Below, in pieces: positions 34,140 to 43,154 of a DNA stretch of 64,000 bases (within the stretch, counting starts at the first letter, position 1; every line of letters begins with the position of its first letter). Both the position numbers and the translations under genes were made by a program. Source of the DNA: Streptomyces sp. B21-105 (GTDB lineage: Bacteria > Actinomycetota > Actinomycetes > Streptomycetales > Streptomycetaceae); assembly GCF_036898465.1 (NCBI RefSeq), contig NZ_JARUMJ010000001.1, forward strand, positions 8,804,001 through 8,868,000. The letters run 5' to 3'. The notes under the pieces are model-generated. The model did not search any database, was not told the origin of the DNA, and was given only the letters and a program-made list of their open reading frames with translations.

Positions 34140-34333
34140 CGCGCTACCTCCCCATCGGCGTGGATTATATGAAAACACCATATCCAGAACATTCCGGGAA
34201 GAGGGGCGCTCGCGTACGCCCGCGCCGGACGCTTCCGTACGCCCGAGCCGCGCCCGGCCACGCGCGGGGAGCGTCCGCGTCGGACGGGGTACGCGTGTGT
34301 CCCGCGGTGCGGCTCTCTGACAGGCTCTGGCTC

Positions 34334-35464
34334 GTGACGTACGTAGTGACCGTGGACACCTGCATCCCGGAGGGCACTCCGGAGATGGACCCGCTTCAAC
34401 GCGCCGGCGCCGTGGCGCTCATCGAGGACGGATTCGCCTCTGTGCGCTCCGTCAAAGGCCCCGAGGGAGTGGAAGTCGCTCTCCTCGACACCATCGTGGC
34501 CGTCCATCCCGGAGGCGCCCTGCTGAAAGTGATCGTGGACGCTCCGTCCCTGGAGCTCGCCGAGGACACCGTGCAGGCGCTCGTGGACGAGCTGCTGGAG
34601 CGCTCGGCGCTGCTGGCGGACTGGACGATCGAGCGGTGCGAGGTCGAGCTGCACCAGGATCTCGCCAGGGAGAGCCTCGACGCGGCCGAAGGCCCCGACG
34701 CCCCGCCCGACGACCTGGCCGCCCGCAAGGCCCGGCACTCCGCCGGCCCGTCGGTCGGGGACCCGGCGGAGGGCGACGGGGAGAAGAAGACCGCGGCGGT
34801 CAGAACGCAGATGCTCCGGCTGGCCGGAGCGCTGCGGTCGTTCCCTCCCGCGATATTCGGCGCGACGGGCGCGACGGGCGCGACGGGCGCGACCGGCATC
34901 ACCGGGGTGACCGGCGCGACCGGGGAGGGAGCCGCCGCACTCGCCGCCGGCGCCCTCCTCTACGCGACCGACATCCTGGTGGACGAGCTGTTCGAAGACC
35001 TCCAGGTCCTGACGCAGGAGGACGCGGCCGTCGCCGAGTGCGAAGGCCCATTGTGGCACCTGGAACACCTTCCCGACCGTTACGCCCTCCAGTACGACGC
35101 CCGCTTCGCGCGCCGCTTCCTGGTGACCGTGATCGCCATGACCACCCGTTTCACCGACGGCTCCTTCCAGCGGCTCAGCTGCGTGGCCGAGGGACTCGCC
35201 CTGCGGCTGCTCCTCAACGAGACGACCACGACACTGGAGCTGTACGGACTCCTGGACGACGACGTGTCGGCCGCTCTCGACGCGTTCGCCGACCACGTGT
35301 ACGAGGACATGGACCACCAGTGGCTCTACGACGACGCCCTGGGCGTGATCGACGGGGCGGCCGCCGGTACCGTCCCGAGGGCCGCGCCACTGGCGTTCAG
35401 GTCGTGGTTCACCCCCTTCGACGAGAGCGGCTACGTGCACCTGTCCCCGGCGGACGAAACCTGA
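34334..35464 (+). CDS. Hypothetical protein with a collagen-like Gly-x-Thr segment
   Basis: A 376-aa protein (start GTG 34334; ATG 34385 possible). The N-terminal ~110 residues (MDPLQRAGAVALIEDGFASV) form an alpha/beta unit. An acidic linker and the short IRSFPPAIFG-like stretch (ALRSFPPAIFG) are followed by seven Gly-x-Thr triplets (residues 176-197), then helical segments (GALLYATDILVDELFEDLQV, RYALQYDARFARRFLVTVIA). No signal peptide is evident. Collagen-like Gly-x-Thr runs are known from exosporium and surface proteins; here the run is short and intracellular. The family is not recognised. Confidence 0.65.
   Translation: MTYVVTVDTCIPEGTPEMDPLQRAGAVALIEDGFASVRSVKGPEGVEVALLDTIVAVHPGGALLKVIVDAPSLELAEDTVQALVDELLERSALLADWTIERCEVELHQDLARESLDAAEGPDAPPDDLAARKARHSAGPSVGDPAEGDGEKKTAAVRTQMLRLAGALRSFPPAIFGATGATGATGATGITGVTGATGEGAAALAAGALLYATDILVDELFEDLQVLTQEDAAVAECEGPLWHLEHLPDRYALQYDARFARRFLVTVIAMTTRFTDGSFQRLSCVAEGLALRLLLNETTTTLELYGLLDDDVSAALDAFADHVYEDMDHQWLYDDALGVIDGAAAGTVPRAAPLAFRSWFTPFDESGYVHLSPADET
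34859..34921 (+). repeat. 9-bp repeats encoding Gly-x-Thr triplets
   Basis: Seven near-identical GGCGCGACG-type nonamers in frame, coding (Gly-Ala/Ile/Val-Thr)7. The unit suits copy-number change by slippage. Confidence 0.8.
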
Positions 35465-37113: not shown

Positions 37114-37127
37114 TATAGTGGCCCGCA
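37114..37127 (+). promoter_or_regulatory. -10 box placing transcription start at the ATG (leaderless)
   Basis: TATAGT at 37114-37119 ends seven bases before the ATG of the RNA ligase gene at 37127. No ribosome binding site lies between them. This spacing predicts a transcript that begins at or next to the start codon, a common leaderless arrangement in Streptomyces. TGGAGG about 17 bases upstream may serve as -35. Confidence 0.55.
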
Positions 37128-38893
37128 TGCGTGCCTCCTACCCTCGGACCCCTCATTTGCCCTGGTCACCGGGCGCGTCCGCGGACGATGTGCGGGCCGC
37201 TGGGCTGAGCGGGCTCGCCGGGCGGGAGGTCGTCGTCACCGAGAAGCTCGACGGGGAGAACACGACGCTGTACGCGGACGGGCTGCACGCCCGGTCCGTG
37301 GACTCGGCGCACCATCCGTCGCGCACGTGGGTCAAGGCGCTGCAGGGGCGGGTGGGGGCGCGGATCCCGGCGGGGTGGCGGGTGTGCGGGGAGAACATGT
37401 ACGCGCGGCACTCGATCCCGTACGACGAACTGGACGGCTACTTCTACGGGTTCTCGGTGTGGGAGGAGCACGACCGGTGTCTGGACTGGGACGGGACCGT
37501 GCGGTTCCTGCGGGCGCTCGGCGTGCCGACGCCGCCCGTGCTGTGGCGGGGCGTGTTCGACGAGCGCGCGCTGCGCCGCCTGCGGGTGGCGACCGGGCGG
37601 CAGGAGGGATACGTGGTCCGGACCGTCGAGGGCTTCGCACGCGAGGACTTCGCCGGACGGATCGCCAAGTGGGTGCGGCCGGGACACGTCACCACGGACA
37701 CCCACTGGATGCACGCGGCTGTCGTGGAGAACGGGCTCGGTCCACGGGCCGCGCTGTGGGCCGTGCGATCCGGGGCGGATCCGGACACGACGGCACTGGC
37801 CCGGTACGTGGGAGCGGGAACGGCCCACGGCGAGGCGGAGGACGACGCGAACACCCACGCGCGCGCGGACGCGGCGGCGGCCGTCGAGACGGGCGCGCGG
37901 CTGGCCGCGCTGAGGCGCGGCGGGGACGCGCGGCTCGCGGGGGTGCTGGCCGCGCTGCTGCACCGCACGCCGCGCGCGTCGCTGATGCGCCGGGCCGCCG
38001 GCCCGCTGGGGGTGCCGCTGGCGAGGCGCGTCGCCGACCTGGTGGGCCTGCACACCGCACTGCACCGGCCGTACCCCGACGAGGAGCGGCGGGCCGGGCT
38101 CGTAGGGATGTCGTTCGCGGCCGACCTGGGGGTGCTGCACGCCGTCGCGGCGGCGGCCGCGGGGGACGAGCGGGCGGCGCGCGAACAGGTGGAGTGGTCC
38201 GCGCTGCACGCGGAGGAGGCGGGACTGCTCGCCGAGGCTCCGCTCGCGCCCCTGAGGTCCGGGCTGCGCGCGGCGCTGGCCCGGGACGGGATCCGCGGCG
38301 AGGCCGCGGACCGCTGCTGGGCGCAGACCCGGGACGCGTACGCGCGGGGACGGGTCCGCACGGTCGAGGACGCCGTGGCGGCGACCTGGCGGTGGCGCGC
38401 CGGGGACTTCCCCCGGCTGGTGCACCTCGTGGGCCCGTCCGGCAGCGGCAAGAGCTCCTTCGCGGCGCGCCTCGACGGCGTGTCGGCGCGCGTCGAGCTC
38501 GACGCACTGCGTGCGGCGCGCGGCGCGCGGGCCGACCAGAAGGCCAACGCGGAAGTACTGCGGGAGGGCCTGGGCCGGCTGGACGGAGCGCTCGCGGCCG
38601 GCGGCACGGTCGTGTGGGACGCCACGTCCCTCGACCCGCGGCAGCGTTCCCTGGTCCACGGCGTGGCGCGGCGGCGCGACGCACTGGTCACCCACGTCGT
38701 CGTCCTCGCCGACGAGGACGAGCTGGCACGGCGCAACGCCGGCCGCGCGCATCCGGTGCCGTCGGACGTGCTGGCGGGGCAACTGCGCCGTTTCGTGCCG
38801 CCCTATCCCGGCCAGGCGCACCGCACCTGGTACGTGGACGCGGACGGGACCGTACAGGACCGCGACGGCACACTGGAGGGGGAGGACGCCTGA
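37127..38893 (+). CDS. RNA ligase-polynucleotide kinase fusion
   Basis: A 588-aa protein. The N-terminal nucleotidyltransferase domain has the ligase motif [11 protein letters not shown] with Lys40 as the AMP-accepting residue, then [23 protein letters not shown] (motif III-like), EGYVVR (motif IV) and IAKWVRPG (motif V), matching Rnl2-type RNA ligases. A helical Arg/Ala-rich middle (about 230-420) follows, then a P-loop kinase with GPSGSGKSS at 436-444 and [14 protein letters not shown], as in polynucleotide kinases. It should phosphorylate 5' ends and seal RNA. It overlaps the next gene as TGATG; transcription seems leaderless. Confidence 0.88.
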
Positions 38894-41859
38894 TGCGTAC
38901 CAGCGAGGAGATCTACCACCGGGTGCGCTGGGACGCGCGGTTCGACCCCGCGCGGTTCGTGTTCGGCATCCACCAGCGGGGCGCCGCGCCCAAGCGCGTG
39001 CCGCTGGCGGCGTTCGTGCCGGGCGGCGAGATCCCCTGGCACCGGGTGCTGTTCGTCGAGGCGGACGGCGAGGTCGTGTGGGACCGCGCCACCGGGATGG
39101 ACCGCGTCGACGCCTCCGGCGCCGGGCGGGTCCGCGAGGCACGGCTGCTGCGGGCGCCCTTCTTCACGGCGCGCACCCCGCACGCGTGGGACGGCCCCGC
39201 CGGGCGGTGGCTCCCCGCGGCGCACGACCGGGGGGAGCCGGGCCGGGACGGGACCCGGGTGCTGACCTGGAACACGCTCTGGGACCGCTACGACAGCGAC
39301 CGCATCGACACCGCCCGGCGCCGCCCACTGCTGCTGGAGGCCCTCGAGCGCGCCGACGCCGACGTCATCGCCCTTCAGGAGGTCGAGACGGGGCTGCTGA
39401 CCCTGCTCCTGGCGGCGCCCTGGGTACGGGCCCACTACACCCTCGGCGCCGACCCCTACGGCAAGGACGTCGACGACTGCGGTCTGCTGCTGCTCAGCCG
39501 GCTCCCCGTGCGGGAAGCCGCCCTGCACGCCCTGGGCCGCCACAAGGCCGTCACCGCCGTCGTCGTCGACACCGCGGCCGGACCGCTGACGGTGGCCGCC
39601 ACCCATCTGACGAGCGACCACTCCGAGAACGGCCCGGCCCGGCGCGACGCCGAACTCACCCGGCTCGCCGAGGGAACGGCGGGGGTGCCGGGCGGCCTGG
39701 TCCTGGTCGGCGACTTCAACGACGGCGGCCCCGGCCCGGCGCGCACGCTCGGCATGCTCGACGCCTGGACCGAGACCCACGGCCCGCACGACGACTCGCC
39801 CACCTTCGACCCCGGCGACAACCCGCTCGCCGCCGTCTCCTCCCTGTCGGGCCGCGCCTCCCGGCTCGACCGCGTCCTCGTGCGCCCCGCCGACGGCCCG
39901 CGCGTGACCGGGGCGACGCTGCTCGGCACCACGCCCACCCCGGACGGGCTGTATCTCTCCGACCACTACGGGGTCGCCGCCGACCTGCACTGCGGCGCCG
40001 GCACGCCCGTCGACGTCCTCGACCTCGCGCCGACGCCCCGTACGGCACTGGCATGGGTGCCGCCGGGCGAGCTGTGGCCGGGACTCCAGGACGTGCGCCG
40101 GGACCACGACGTGCAGATCCGGCGCTGGCCGCCGCACGTCAACGTGCTGTTCGGGTTCGTCCCCGAGGCCGACTTCGAGGGGGCGGCCCCGCTGCTCGCC
40201 GCGGCGGCCGCGCAGGTCGAGCCGTTCACGGCACGCCTCGACGGGGTGCACACCTTCGCCCACGGGCGGGACGCCACCGTGTGGCTGGACCCGGCGGCGG
40301 ACGACGGGACGCCGTGGGCAGAGCTGTGGCAGGCGCTCGTCCGGCGCTTCCCCCGCTGCCGTGGCCGCCACGACGGATTCACCCCGCACCTCAGCCTCGG
40401 CCGGACCGGCGATCCGCACGCCGTCGCCGCCGAGTGCGCGACCCGGCTCGCCCCGATGACCGCCCGCGTCGGCGAACTCGTCCTGCTGTCCCGGCGGGGC
40501 GAGGAACCGATGCGGCCGCGCGCCACGGTCGCCCTCGGCACCGGTGAGGTGCGGTGGCTTCCCGAGCCGGGCCTCGGCCGGCCCGACCGAGGACGGCAGG
40601 ACTGGGCCTCGCCCCCGGCAGGCGCGCACGTCCGGCCGGTTGCCGACGAACCGGCGGCCGGGCACGTCGTACGGCGCCTGGCGGACGCGCTCGGCGAGGG
40701 AGTCGTCCACCTCGCGGGCTCGCGGCGCATGGGCTGCGCCCTCGCCGGAGCCGACCTGGACCTCGTCGCGGCGCTGCCCGGCGCCGTGGAACTCGCCGAC
40801 GTACGGGAGCGGGTGACGGCCGCTCTGCCGCAGGCCGCACGGATGCGGGAGGTCGTCGGCGCGCGCGTGCCGGGACTGCGGTTCCACGCCGAGGGCCTCG
40901 ACGTGGACCTGGCGGTCGTCGCCACCGGGACGGTGCCTGCGGCAAAGGCCCTGCCCCGGCGGGCCGAGCTGGGCGAGGCCGCGGCGGTCGCGTTGAGCTC
41001 GGTGTCGGACGCGGACGCGGTCCTCGCGGCCGTGGGCGCGCACCGCCTGCCGGCCTTCGCGGAGCTGGCCCGGGGCGTCAAGGCGTGGGCCCGCGCGCGC
41101 GGACTCGACGGAGCGCCGTTCGGCGGCCTGCCCGGCGTGGCCTGGACGGTGCTCGCCGCACGCACGGTCGTTCGGCCCCCTGACGTGCCGGACCCCGATG
41201 AGCTGCTGCGACGGTTCTTCGCGACCTGGGCGGCATGGGACTGGCGCGAGCCGGTCGGCCTCACCGCGCACGGGCGCGAGACCGGCGGGACGCACCACCA
41301 CCAAAACCACCGCCCCACACCGCAGGCACACCTGACCCACCACGCCCTGACCGTGCTGACGCCCAGCGCGCCCGTGCGGTCCTGCACCGAACAGGTCGGC
41401 CCGCCCGGACGGGACCTGGTGAGCCAGGAGCTCTACCGCGCCTGGGAGACGGTGGAGGCAGCGGCCGGGTCCGGCGCCGATCCATGGCCCGCGCTGCTGT
41501 CCCCGCCGCCCCTGCACCGGCGGCACACGGCATGGGCCGTGGTGACGGTGCGAGGGCGGCGGACGCGGGACTTCGACGAGCTGAACGGGCGGGTACGCGG
41601 ACGGCTGCGCGCGCTGCTCACGGCACTGGAGGAGGCGGGCGTGGCGGACGCGCACGCCTGGCCGCGGCAGTTGCCCCCGTTGCCGGAGTCGGCGCCGGCG
41701 TCCGCCGCGGAACCCACGGGCGCGCGCTACGCCATCGGGCTCGGACGCACGCCACCCGGCGCGCAGCGGCTGGCGGACCTGGCCGGCCGGTGGGCTGCCG
41801 GACTGCCGGGCGTGGAGGTGGCGCACGTCGACGGGGGAGCGGTCCCCACGCTGCGATGA
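38893..41859 (+). CDS. RNA end-processing protein: DUF504, EEP, 2H phosphoesterase, nucleotidyltransferase
   Basis: A 988-aa multidomain protein. Residues 1-80 are DUF504-like ([19 protein letters not shown], ending DGEVVWDR). About 120-365 is an endonuclease/exonuclease/phosphatase domain with [28 protein letters not shown] and SDHYG. About 405-560 is a 2H phosphoesterase with HVNVLFG near 415 and HLSLG at 499. About 590-840 is a poly(A)-polymerase/CCA-type nucleotidyltransferase with GSRRMG at 609 and Asp621/Asp623 in GADLDLV. The C-terminal 140 residues are less clear ([17 protein letters not shown]). Together these can open 2',3'-cyclic phosphates, remove phosphates and add nucleotides, matching the upstream ligase-kinase. 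All catalytic motifs are present. Confidence 0.87.
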
Positions 41860-41966
41860 GCCCCGCGGCGTGGGAACCGGCGCTCCCGCCCCGGCCTTCT
41901 TACGGCGGCGCTCCCTCCCACGCCTGCGTGCGGCGGCGGCGCGCACCGGCCGCCGACGTGGGGCGG

Positions 41967-43154
41967 TCAGGCGGCCTTCCGTGCGACGAGCCGCACGGGC
42001 ACCTCGGCGTACGTGTTCAGAATGGTGTTCTCCGCGATCACCGGGTCGCCGGTGAACTCGATCCGCTCGACGGAGTCGAGCAGCGCGTGGATCAGGGCGT
42101 GCAGCTCCAGGCGGGCGACGCCGTGACCGACGCAGCCGTGCGCGCCGTGACCGAACGCCAGGTGGTCGCGCGGATTGCGGCGCAGGTCGAACTCGTCGGC
42201 GCGCTCCCACTTGCGCTCGTCACGGTTGGCGGAGGCGAACAGGGCCCACACCCGCGCCCCCTGCGGGATCGTCACCCCGCCGAGCCGCGTGTCGCGCGCG
42301 GCGACACGGGTGAGGCCCCGCACGGGAGTCTCGAACCGCAGGAGTTCGTTGATCGTCGAGGCCACCAGCCCGGGCTCGGCGCGCAGGGCGGCCCACTGGT
42401 CCGGGCGCTCGGCGAAGACGACGAGCAGATGGCCGATCGCGGCGGCCGTGGTCTCCAACGACGGGCCGATGAAGTCGACGAGGAGGAGCGGGCACTTCTC
42501 CTGCGGGATGACACCCTGCTCGGCTGCCTCGAGCATGGCGGCTCCGGGACTCCCGGGCGCGAGTTCGCCGCTCGCCGCGAGCTCGTGGGCGAACGCGAAG
42601 AGACGCTGCGTCATCTCCATGTTGTGCGGGGTGCGTTCGGTGACCGGGCCCAGCAGGTCGTTGCCCACCTGGCCCCACTCGTAGAGGTGCTCACGGCCCC
42701 GGTCGGGCAGGCCGAGGTAGTCGGGTATGACCAACATGGGCATGGCCTGGGCCAGTTCGGCGACGCCGTCGATCTCGCCCCGGGCGACGACCTCGGCCAC
42801 GAGGCCCTGTGCCTTGCGGGCTATCTCCTCACCGCGACCCTGCACGGAACCCGGCCGCAGTCCGGCCCCGACGACGGAGCGCAGCACGTCGTGCTCCGGC
42901 GGATCGCTGACCAGGGTGACGCCCCGCATGATCCGGTTGACGTCGGGATCGAATCCCACGCCCTCGCCGGAGAGGAACGTGTCGTGGTCGGCCAGCGCGG
43001 CCTTCACCTCGTTGTACCGGGTGAGCGCGTAGACGTCCGGTTCGCGCAGCCGGACGACGCCGCCCAGTTCCCGCAGCTGCCGGTACTGCTCGTAGCGGAT
43101 GCGCCGGTCCGAGGACGCGAACATGTCGATCTCTGCGCAGGGCACGACGGCCAT
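41967..43154 (-). CDS. Cytochrome P450
   Basis: A 395-aa soluble P450. The I-helix reads [20 protein letters not shown], with GPSLETT in place of the common AGxET, ExxR is in [14 protein letters not shown], and the heme ligand Cys is in [27 protein letters not shown] precedes ATG 43154. No ferredoxin or ferredoxin reductase gene lies beside it, so electrons must come from elsewhere. Alone on its strand here; substrate unknown. Confidence 0.93.

Follow-up and report, generated by a model that had tools for sequence, protein, structure and literature searches.

Two neighbouring genes on the forward strand of Streptomyces sp. B21-105, designated here ORF1 and ORF2 (ORF, open reading frame), were studied in a stretch of 64,000 bp ("the window"). 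The genome measures 9.21 Mb and is assembled in 3 contigs; the window corresponds to bases 8,804,001 to 8,868,000 of contig 1, and its nearest named relatives belong to Streptomyces. Gene calls and domain scans placed ORF1 at positions 37127 to 38893, from an ATG at 37127 to a TGA at 38891 to 38893, and ORF2 at 38893 to 41859, from an ATG at 38893 to a stop codon ending at 41859. ORF1 encodes a protein of 588 amino acids (aa) with an RNA ligase, a middle domain, and a polynucleotide kinase; ORF2 encodes a protein of 988 aa with MJ1316, EEP, 2H, and poly(A)-polymerase-like domains. Stop and start codon share one base in the sequence TGATG at 38891 to 38895 (plus strand). Judged from sequence, the two proteins together probably constitute an accessory RNA end-repair system, which would heal, extend, and seal nuclease-cut RNA with 2',3'-cyclic phosphate and 5'-OH ends. 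An earlier interpretation of this DNA, the sequence-only reading, had described an overlapping pair of a ligase-kinase gene and a gene for a four-domain protein, and the gene boundaries and Pfam families over their cut-offs bore this out. Long antisense frames cover the same DNA, for instance that at 38803 to 42210 of the minus strand, and are expected because the G+C content is 73 to 78%.

Ligase and kinase of ORF1

The ligase domain (PF09414, RNA_ligase; aa 33 to 183, positions 37223 to 37675, plus strand) scored 120 bits (cut-off, 27; E = 1.5e-34), which assigned it to the ATP-dependent, Rnl2-like RNA ligases. The motifs KLDGEN, EGYVVR, and KWVR, already picked out by the sequence-only reading, are located at aa 40 to 45, 160 to 165, and 181 to 184, and residues K40, D42, G43, E89, E160, R165, K181, and W182 were invariant in all 46 aligned homologs. 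The P-loop polynucleotide 5'-kinase domain (aa 431 to 559, 38417 to 38803, plus strand; AAA_33, 8.4e-23) contains the motifs GPSGSGKS, D459/R462, and R536/R540, with K442, S443, D459, R462, and R536 conserved in 46 of 46 homologs and R540 in 45 of 46. The roles of these ligase and kinase residues are assumed to be those of the respective motifs. Mean pairwise identity was 78% in the ligase region and 71% in the kinase region.

A profile of the 46 homologs was compared with the PDB sequences. It matched 4jst (2.1e-10), which is presumably the kinase domain of a Pnkp and carries a PDB label that reads metallophosphoesterase, and T4 polynucleotide kinase with 5e-6 to 2e-5 (1ltq, 2.2e-5). The kinase part of the NCBIfam model for bacterial Pnkp was also matched (7.9e-9), far under the cut-off for the whole protein. 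By these matches, the kinase is classed as one of the polynucleotide kinase kind. No 3'-phosphatase domain was found by Pfam in ORF1, which sets it apart from a complete Pnkp or T4 Pnk and would agree with a division of labour in which 3' healing falls to ORF2.

The middle domain (aa 206 to 428, 37742 to 38410, plus strand) is conserved in its part from aa 261 to 425, with a mean pairwise identity of 66%. It had no match in the PDB at E values up to 10, and none of the Pfam families exceeded its cut-off. An HD domain was considered for this region and rejected, since the alignment contained no HD motif and no Pfam or PDB match was obtained. A role in holding or bridging the RNA would be a guess.

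The ligase part of ORF1 also matched 32 of 50,697 phage records, with 39 to 51% identity in the 20 listed of the 32, which belong to phages with genomes of more than 200 kb. They include large phages of Caulobacter, Xanthomonas, Agrobacterium, and other hosts, and many of the matching proteins are annotated as hypothetical. No record matched 80% of ORF1. A phage origin of the whole operon was rejected, because ORF2 matched none of the same 50,697 records.

The four domains of ORF2

All four Pfam families assigned to ORF2 exceeded their curated cut-offs: MJ1316 (2.4e-18), Exo_endo_phos (4.2e-17), 2_5_RNA_ligase2 (1.7e-30), and PAP_central (5.2e-15). Residue conservation was scored in 80 rows, consisting of the window and 79 of 80 named loci, which were the best 80 of 241 relatives in named genomes; one locus (L079) was mis-extracted and left out. 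Two further sets served for comparison, an actinomycete set of 120 listed matches of ORF2 and a cyanobacterial set of 120 listed of the 162 relatives found with a homolog from Calothrix as query. The domains were better conserved than the linkers between them: conservation was 83% for MJ1316 and 70% for EEP and 56%, 52%, and, before the polymerase, 26% for the linkers.

The N-terminal MJ1316 domain (DUF504; 38893 to 39087, plus strand) reached 67 bits against a cut-off of 26.3, which placed it in this family. MJ1316 domains are predicted to bind 2',3'-cyclic ends of RNA and are fused to RNA-repair domains (PMC6514570).

The second domain (39262 to 39966, plus strand) is a TDP2-like, metal-dependent phosphoesterase of the EEP superfamily. 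Residues N127, E163, H238, D274, N276, D326, and H358, which correspond to the presumed catalytic set N, E, H, D-x-N, D, H, were present in 80 of 80 rows and in 118 to 120 of the 120 sequences of the cyanobacterial set. In a PDB comparison with a profile built from 43 sequences of actinomycetes and cyanobacteria, TDP2 scored 3.8e-19, and the other relatives were weaker, with 1.1e-10 for the best of the sphingomyelinase-type enzymes, 1.6e-6 for CNOT6L, and 0.009 for nocturnin. TDP2 being well ahead, the domain was not assigned to the ANGEL/CCR4 type, of which CCR4 kin were compared and ANGEL2 was not listed. TDP2 removes adducts at 5' ends. The label "3' phosphatase" for this domain is thus plausible and not given by homology. 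In mitochondria, 3' phosphates are cleared by ANGEL2, likewise of the EEP type, so that polyadenylation can follow (PMC9525292), which makes the pairing of an EEP domain with a poly(A) polymerase a sensible one.

The closeness to TDP2 would also fit a set of enzymes that acts on DNA ends, with a TDP2-like EEP domain and a kinase and ligase capable of using DNA. Against this, each of the families RNA_ligase, MJ1316, 2H, and poly(A) polymerase is associated with RNA, judged by family names and usual functions, and action on DNA is considered very improbable. What speaks for it besides TDP2 is a lancelet kinase of this kind, which preferred DNA (PMC5434554).

Returning to RNA repair, the third domain (40060 to 40503, plus strand) falls into the Pfam family of 2H phosphoesterases. 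Two H-x-T/S motifs are the defining feature of 2H enzymes (PMC5434554, PMC5283653), and their counterparts in ORF2 are HVN at aa 415 to 417 and, at aa 499 to 504, HLS followed by an arginine. Both H415 and H499 were kept in all 80 rows, and the second motif read HxS or HxT in all of them. In LigT of Escherichia coli, a water molecule is held by His125 and Arg130 (PMC5283653); H499 and R504 of ORF2 have the same spacing, with R in 77 of 80 rows. An activity of this domain is likely, although its first motif departs from the strict definition; that it is a standard cyclic phosphodiesterase is uncertain.

The C-terminal domain is a nucleotidyltransferase, for which re-addition of lost CCA ends of tRNA had been suggested by the sequence-only reading. 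This assignment had to be given up. All 9 matches of a single-sequence PDB search were nuclear-type poly(A) polymerases, led by human poly(A) polymerase gamma (PAP gamma, 2.3e-24), with further enzymes from mammals, fission yeast, and budding yeast behind it. CCA-adding enzymes, which were rejected on homology, were absent from the 9, 24, or 54 PDB sequences listed in the various searches. The aligned region of ORF2 (aa 603 to 929, 40699 to 41679, plus strand; PF04928, PAP_central, at 41056 to 41499, plus strand) corresponds to residues 100 to 428 of PAP gamma, about 330 residues, and takes in the palm, central, and RNA-binding parts, with the GS motif (aa 609 and 610) and the three aspartates D621, D623, and D672 in register. 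The aspartates were kept in 80, 78, and 79 of the 80 rows, respectively. With the profile from both phyla, the PAP gamma match rose to 3.5e-67, and enzymes of the Cid1/TUT/URT type stayed well behind, with 2.3e-11 at best. The domain is, as far as homology can tell, a relative of the eukaryotic, nuclear-type poly(A) polymerase and not of the CCA type.

The nucleotide pocket showed a difference between the two bacterial sets. The stretch RGIYSNMLGFLGGVSW of human PAP gamma aligned with 16 residues of ORF2, in which D739, A741, and P747 replace the pocket Y, the pocket N, and one G in every sequence of the actinomycete set (120 of 120), so that the Tyr/Asn pair of PAP gamma is missing there. In the cyanobacterial set, the same positions are occupied by Y or H (115 of 120), N (117 of 120), and G (118 of 120). 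The pocket Y and N presumably contact the nucleotide in the human enzyme. If the replaced residues do so, the nucleotide choice of the actinomycete enzyme may differ.

PF04928 was matched (E up to 1e-5, to which the count is limited) in 27 of 150 Streptomyces genomes and in none of 14 control genomes. Each of the 27 genomes had one copy, all possessed ORF2, and all matches were located just 3' of the ORF2 match, inside the operon. RNA tails in Streptomyces coelicolor and in cyanobacteria have been credited to PNPase (PMC8208693); that paper searched with the signature of the proteobacterial PAP I and reports a PAP I-like gene in Streptomyces cavourensis.

Pairing and distribution of the two genes

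ORF1 was found directly upstream of ORF2 and on the same strand in 75 of the best 80 named loci, and 43 of these 75 share the overlap of one base. Some of these ORF1 copies are cut off by the end of a contig, and the absence of ORF1 was judged within the available DNA. Among 246 Streptomyces genomes, 48 contained both genes, 1 contained ORF1 only, 2 contained an ORF2-type gene only, and 195 contained neither (Fisher P = 1.7e-47, uncorrected for kinship). "ORF2-type" means a match of E < 1e-60 to an MJ1316-EEP query, as obtained in 50 genomes; the query found matches in 70 of the 246. The genome with ORF1 only (G444) is 82% complete, with the gene at a contig edge, and those with ORF2 only are G451, where it is truncated, and G477. 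The two samples overlap, as G477 and locus L055 of the 80 share a contig of the same length. The one-base overlap and the co-occurrence support the view that the two genes form one unit. Pairwise distances of ORF1 and ORF2 were correlated as well (r = 0.84, 42 gene pairs), which shared descent alone would also give.

The operon is an accessory one, mostly kept intact where present. ORF1 occurred in 49 of the 246 Streptomyces genomes, about a fifth, and several copies were broken or split; in a sample of the phylum, ORF2 was found in 3 of 396, ORF1 in 4 of 396 (one with the ligase part only), and MJ1316 in 2 of 198. In genome G407, the ORF1 homolog is split into aa 1 to 337 and aa 339 to 583, located 2.8 Mb apart on contig 1 near 6.01 and 8.84 Mb, with ORF2 beside the second piece, a natural rearrangement break. 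Broken, split, or partial copies such as those in G407, G589, and the truncated one in G451 could mean that the operon is decaying and has little present function. This is hardly to be expected, because the catalytic residues were invariant over loci of 18 genus labels and the domains exceeded the linkers in conservation.

No conserved third gene was seen in the 80 loci. The commonest neighbours besides ORF1 were presumed genes for ribosomal proteins from the S10 region (14 of 80 loci) and presumed tuf genes (8 of 80). The place of insertion thus recurs in Streptomyces, whereas no partner gene does. A neighbour family at or near the start of ORF2 in 54 loci was discounted, as it reads like an overlapping frame. 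Proximity to the S10 operon in 14 of 80 loci could point instead to maturation or splicing of host RNA, of tRNA or another kind, rather than to damage, and fungal tRNA ligase Trl1 has a comparable set of enzymes, with a ligase, a kinase, and a cyclic phosphodiesterase (PMC5434554). The patchy occurrence in 49 of 246 genomes, with several broken or split copies, makes an essential maturation function unlikely, and this explanation is given little weight.

Relatives of ORF2 extend beyond the actinomycetes. A conjugative plasmid of Calothrix brevissima encodes the same four domains in one protein of 991 aa (PAP_central, 1.7e-29), and all named organisms among the 120 listed of the 162 relatives found with it were cyanobacteria. 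The cyanobacterial proteins are 27 to 32% identical to ORF2 and nearly always keep the catalytic residues. ORF2 thus appears as a widespread module, which can stand apart from ORF1. On the Calothrix plasmid (L086:1-18730), 4 of 22 neighbouring genes were scanned and gave a dynamin-like protein, an exonuclease-NTPase fusion, and two proteins without a family over the cut-off; the exonuclease-NTPase fusion weakly matches defence models, and the region is possibly a defence island.

A short MJ1316-2H form was recognized in 20 of the 246 Streptomyces genomes, all without the full ORF2, by a match over the first 120 or so residues only. In the 8 of them that were inspected at the level of the locus, a 2H domain was always present. 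These proteins have no polymerase, and their frames comprise 273 to 422 aa in seven loci (among L091 to L098, L101, and L102). The short form is located at about 5 to 7 kb in these loci and near 16 kb in L096. It was present in two genomes that also contain the full ORF2 (G518 and G612), and pieces of it are located on Streptomyces plasmids; no constant neighbour was seen.

In the window, 13 other proteins were scanned. Ten were assigned to families (a GNAT acetyltransferase, an amidohydrolase, a SpoIIE-type phosphatase, a P450, a LacI regulator, two transport proteins, YnfA, an aldo/keto reductase, and PPK2), and three had no family over the cut-off. No RNA-repair gene was among the ten, no tRNA gene was found within the 64 kb, and a scan for promoters and terminators gave nothing useful. 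The protein encoded at 34160 to 35464 contains a short, collagen-like Gly-Ala-Thr repeat (GATGATGATG...) and stayed below the cut-off of Pfam Collagen (13.6 versus 27.2 bits).

Possible reactions and relation to known systems

Several observations weigh against RNA repair by healing and sealing. The EEP domain is nearest to TDP2, a 5'-end enzyme, so that its proposed use as a 3'-phosphatase may be mistaken. In the 2H domain, the first motif deviates from the norm, being HxN in 75 of 80 rows and HxT in 5, and R504 is replaced by Q in 115 of the 120 cyanobacterial-set sequences. With the ORF1 profile, L-seryl-tRNA kinases scored 2.1e-6, between 4jst and T4 polynucleotide kinase. ORF2 occurred without ORF1 in 5 of the 80 loci, two from Streptomyces (L021 and L055) and three from Catellatospora (L062, L071, and L084), and the four scanned neighbours in the single cyanobacterial locus included neither a ligase nor a kinase. 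The two ORF1-less Streptomyces copies have lost a polymerase aspartate, with D623N found only in these 2 of 80 rows and D672 also missing in L055; the three Catellatospora copies keep all three. L021 and L055 look like sisters, so that this counts as one event, which suggests, as a weak hint, a coupling of sealing and nucleotide addition.

A gene similar to rtcB, presumed so by motif, is located 3.5 kb (L071:12385-13569) and 1.4 kb (L084:10171-11355) from the ORF1-less ORF2 of Catellatospora. It was found in these two loci only among 85 searched, and the contig of the third Catellatospora locus stops 2.3 kb beyond ORF2. RtcB as a replacement ligase is a lead.

The main rival explanation is that ORF2 clears phosphates and then adds a poly(A)-like tail, which would mark the fragment for decay or protect it and would compete with sealing, and that ORF1 acts on a subset of the RNAs or in a separate step. 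Tails on bacterial RNA promote decay. The polymerase matches the palm, central, and RNA-binding regions of the nuclear enzyme, ORF2 has no ORF1 beside it in 5 of 80 loci and on the Calothrix plasmid, and ANGEL2 and MTPAP are a natural pair for healing followed by tailing (PMC9525292). The near-perfect pairing with the ligase-kinase in Streptomyces stands against this explanation, as do the D and A in place of the pocket Y and N in 120 of 120 actinomycete sequences, which may have changed the processive use of ATP; tailing is accordingly rated as rather unlikely.

For the preferred reading, repair of cut RNA, all reactions, their order, and the RNA substrate are inferred, and tRNA is the likely substrate. 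The MJ1316 domain, as predicted in the literature, would dock the cyclic 3' end. The 2H domain would open this end to a phosphomonoester, and the EEP domain would remove the remaining phosphate or a blocked terminus to give a 3'-OH; of all the steps, this removal is the least certain. One or a few nucleotides would then be added to the 3'-OH by the domain of the poly(A) polymerase type, either to fill a gap before sealing or to tag RNA left unsealed. The kinase of ORF1 would phosphorylate the 5'-OH, and the ligase would adenylate the 5' phosphate by way of K40 and finally seal the ends. The domain set fits the opening of ends, the 5' phosphorylation, and the sealing that the sequence-only reading had ascribed to one operon; the EEP domain as phosphatase and the 2H domain as standard phosphodiesterase are uncertain, and "every activity needed" would go beyond the domain assignments as an inference. 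The catalytic residues claimed by the same reading were present for EEP and for the 2H histidines in 80 of 80 rows and for the aspartates in 78 to 80 of 80, with the first 2H motif as the deviation.

A more specific form of this repair would be that the eukaryote-type poly(A) polymerase, with its re-tuned pocket, restores nucleotides that nucleases have removed, before the ends are sealed. This proposal is tentative, and its correctness doubtful. If true, the operon would reverse damage that repair of the T4 type is proposed to be unable to reverse, and these Streptomyces, in which tails are credited to PNPase, would have no other poly(A) polymerase of the nuclear type. RloC excises the wobble nucleotide and has been proposed to defeat tRNA repair by phages (PMC2610378). 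Adding nucleotides before sealing could answer such damage in principle, so that repair could undo a nucleotide-removing attack on tRNA; most wobble bases would not be regained with a polymerase that adds A alone. With the PADLOC 2023 defence models, ORF2 gave no match up to 0.01, and ORF1 gave weak P-loop matches only (best, 0.00085).

With two linked proteins, the operon would cover the healing of 5' and 3' ends, the addition of nucleotides, and sealing, and its nuclear-type poly(A) polymerase bears on the question of which enzymes are responsible for RNA tails in Streptomyces and cyanobacteria. Annotators already recognize the family, as NCBI names homologs of ORF1 "RNA ligase family protein" and those of ORF2 "poly(A) polymerase" or "RNA repair domain-containing protein"; in the NCBIfam scan, neither protein reached the cut-off of any model. 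Burroughs and Aravind (2016; NAR gkw722), cited in PMC6514570, reportedly predicted MJ1316-containing RNA repair systems, and the exact two-gene layout and the nuclear-type poly(A) polymerase may well be described there. Among the open-licence papers listed in literature searches, judged by titles and beginnings of abstracts, none was an experimental study of the operon or identified its nucleotidyltransferase as a poly(A) polymerase of the nuclear type, with the limit that the 2016 prediction paper may hold the layout.

Among the known systems, bacterial Pnkp/Hen1 and Pnkp1/Rnl/Hen1 also combine a 5'-kinase with an ATP-dependent RNA ligase for the repair of nuclease-cut RNA (PMC4411300). In contrast to Pnkp/Hen1, the operon would use 2H and EEP domains for 3' healing and has a poly(A) polymerase added. 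A full Pnkp/Hen1 system, which comprises the Hen1 methyltransferase and a metallophosphoesterase, was rejected, as neither of these was found in ORF1 or ORF2 by Pfam. In the Pnk-Rnl tRNA repair of phage T4, 3' and 5' ends are likewise healed and then sealed (PMC2610378), but the ORF1 kinase has no phosphatase domain, and the operon contains an extra nucleotide-adding domain. Fungal Trl1 has the ligase, kinase, and 2H cyclic phosphodiesterase activities that are predicted for the operon (PMC5434554), whereas these are split over two proteins in the operon, with MJ1316, EEP, and poly(A) polymerase domains added.

LENG9-like proteins, in which MJ1316 is presumably placed next to 2H, and the short MJ1316-2H forms resemble ORF2 in this arrangement but have no polymerase and no full EEP domain. 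The ligase family of Trl1 differs from that of ORF1. The nuclear poly(A) polymerases (PAPOLA/PAPOLG and yeast Pap1) have the same palm, central, and RNA-binding parts and the three aspartates, whereas the ORF2 polymerase is fused behind three end-processing domains and carries D739, A741, and P747 in its pocket. Closest in kind are the predicted MJ1316 RNA repair systems, in which MJ1316 is fused to RNA-repair domains (PMC6514570) and to which the NCBI name "RNA repair domain-containing protein" corresponds. The kind of system, predicted RNA repair, is thus already in print, and the operon described here is a variant of it with a nuclear-type poly(A) polymerase.

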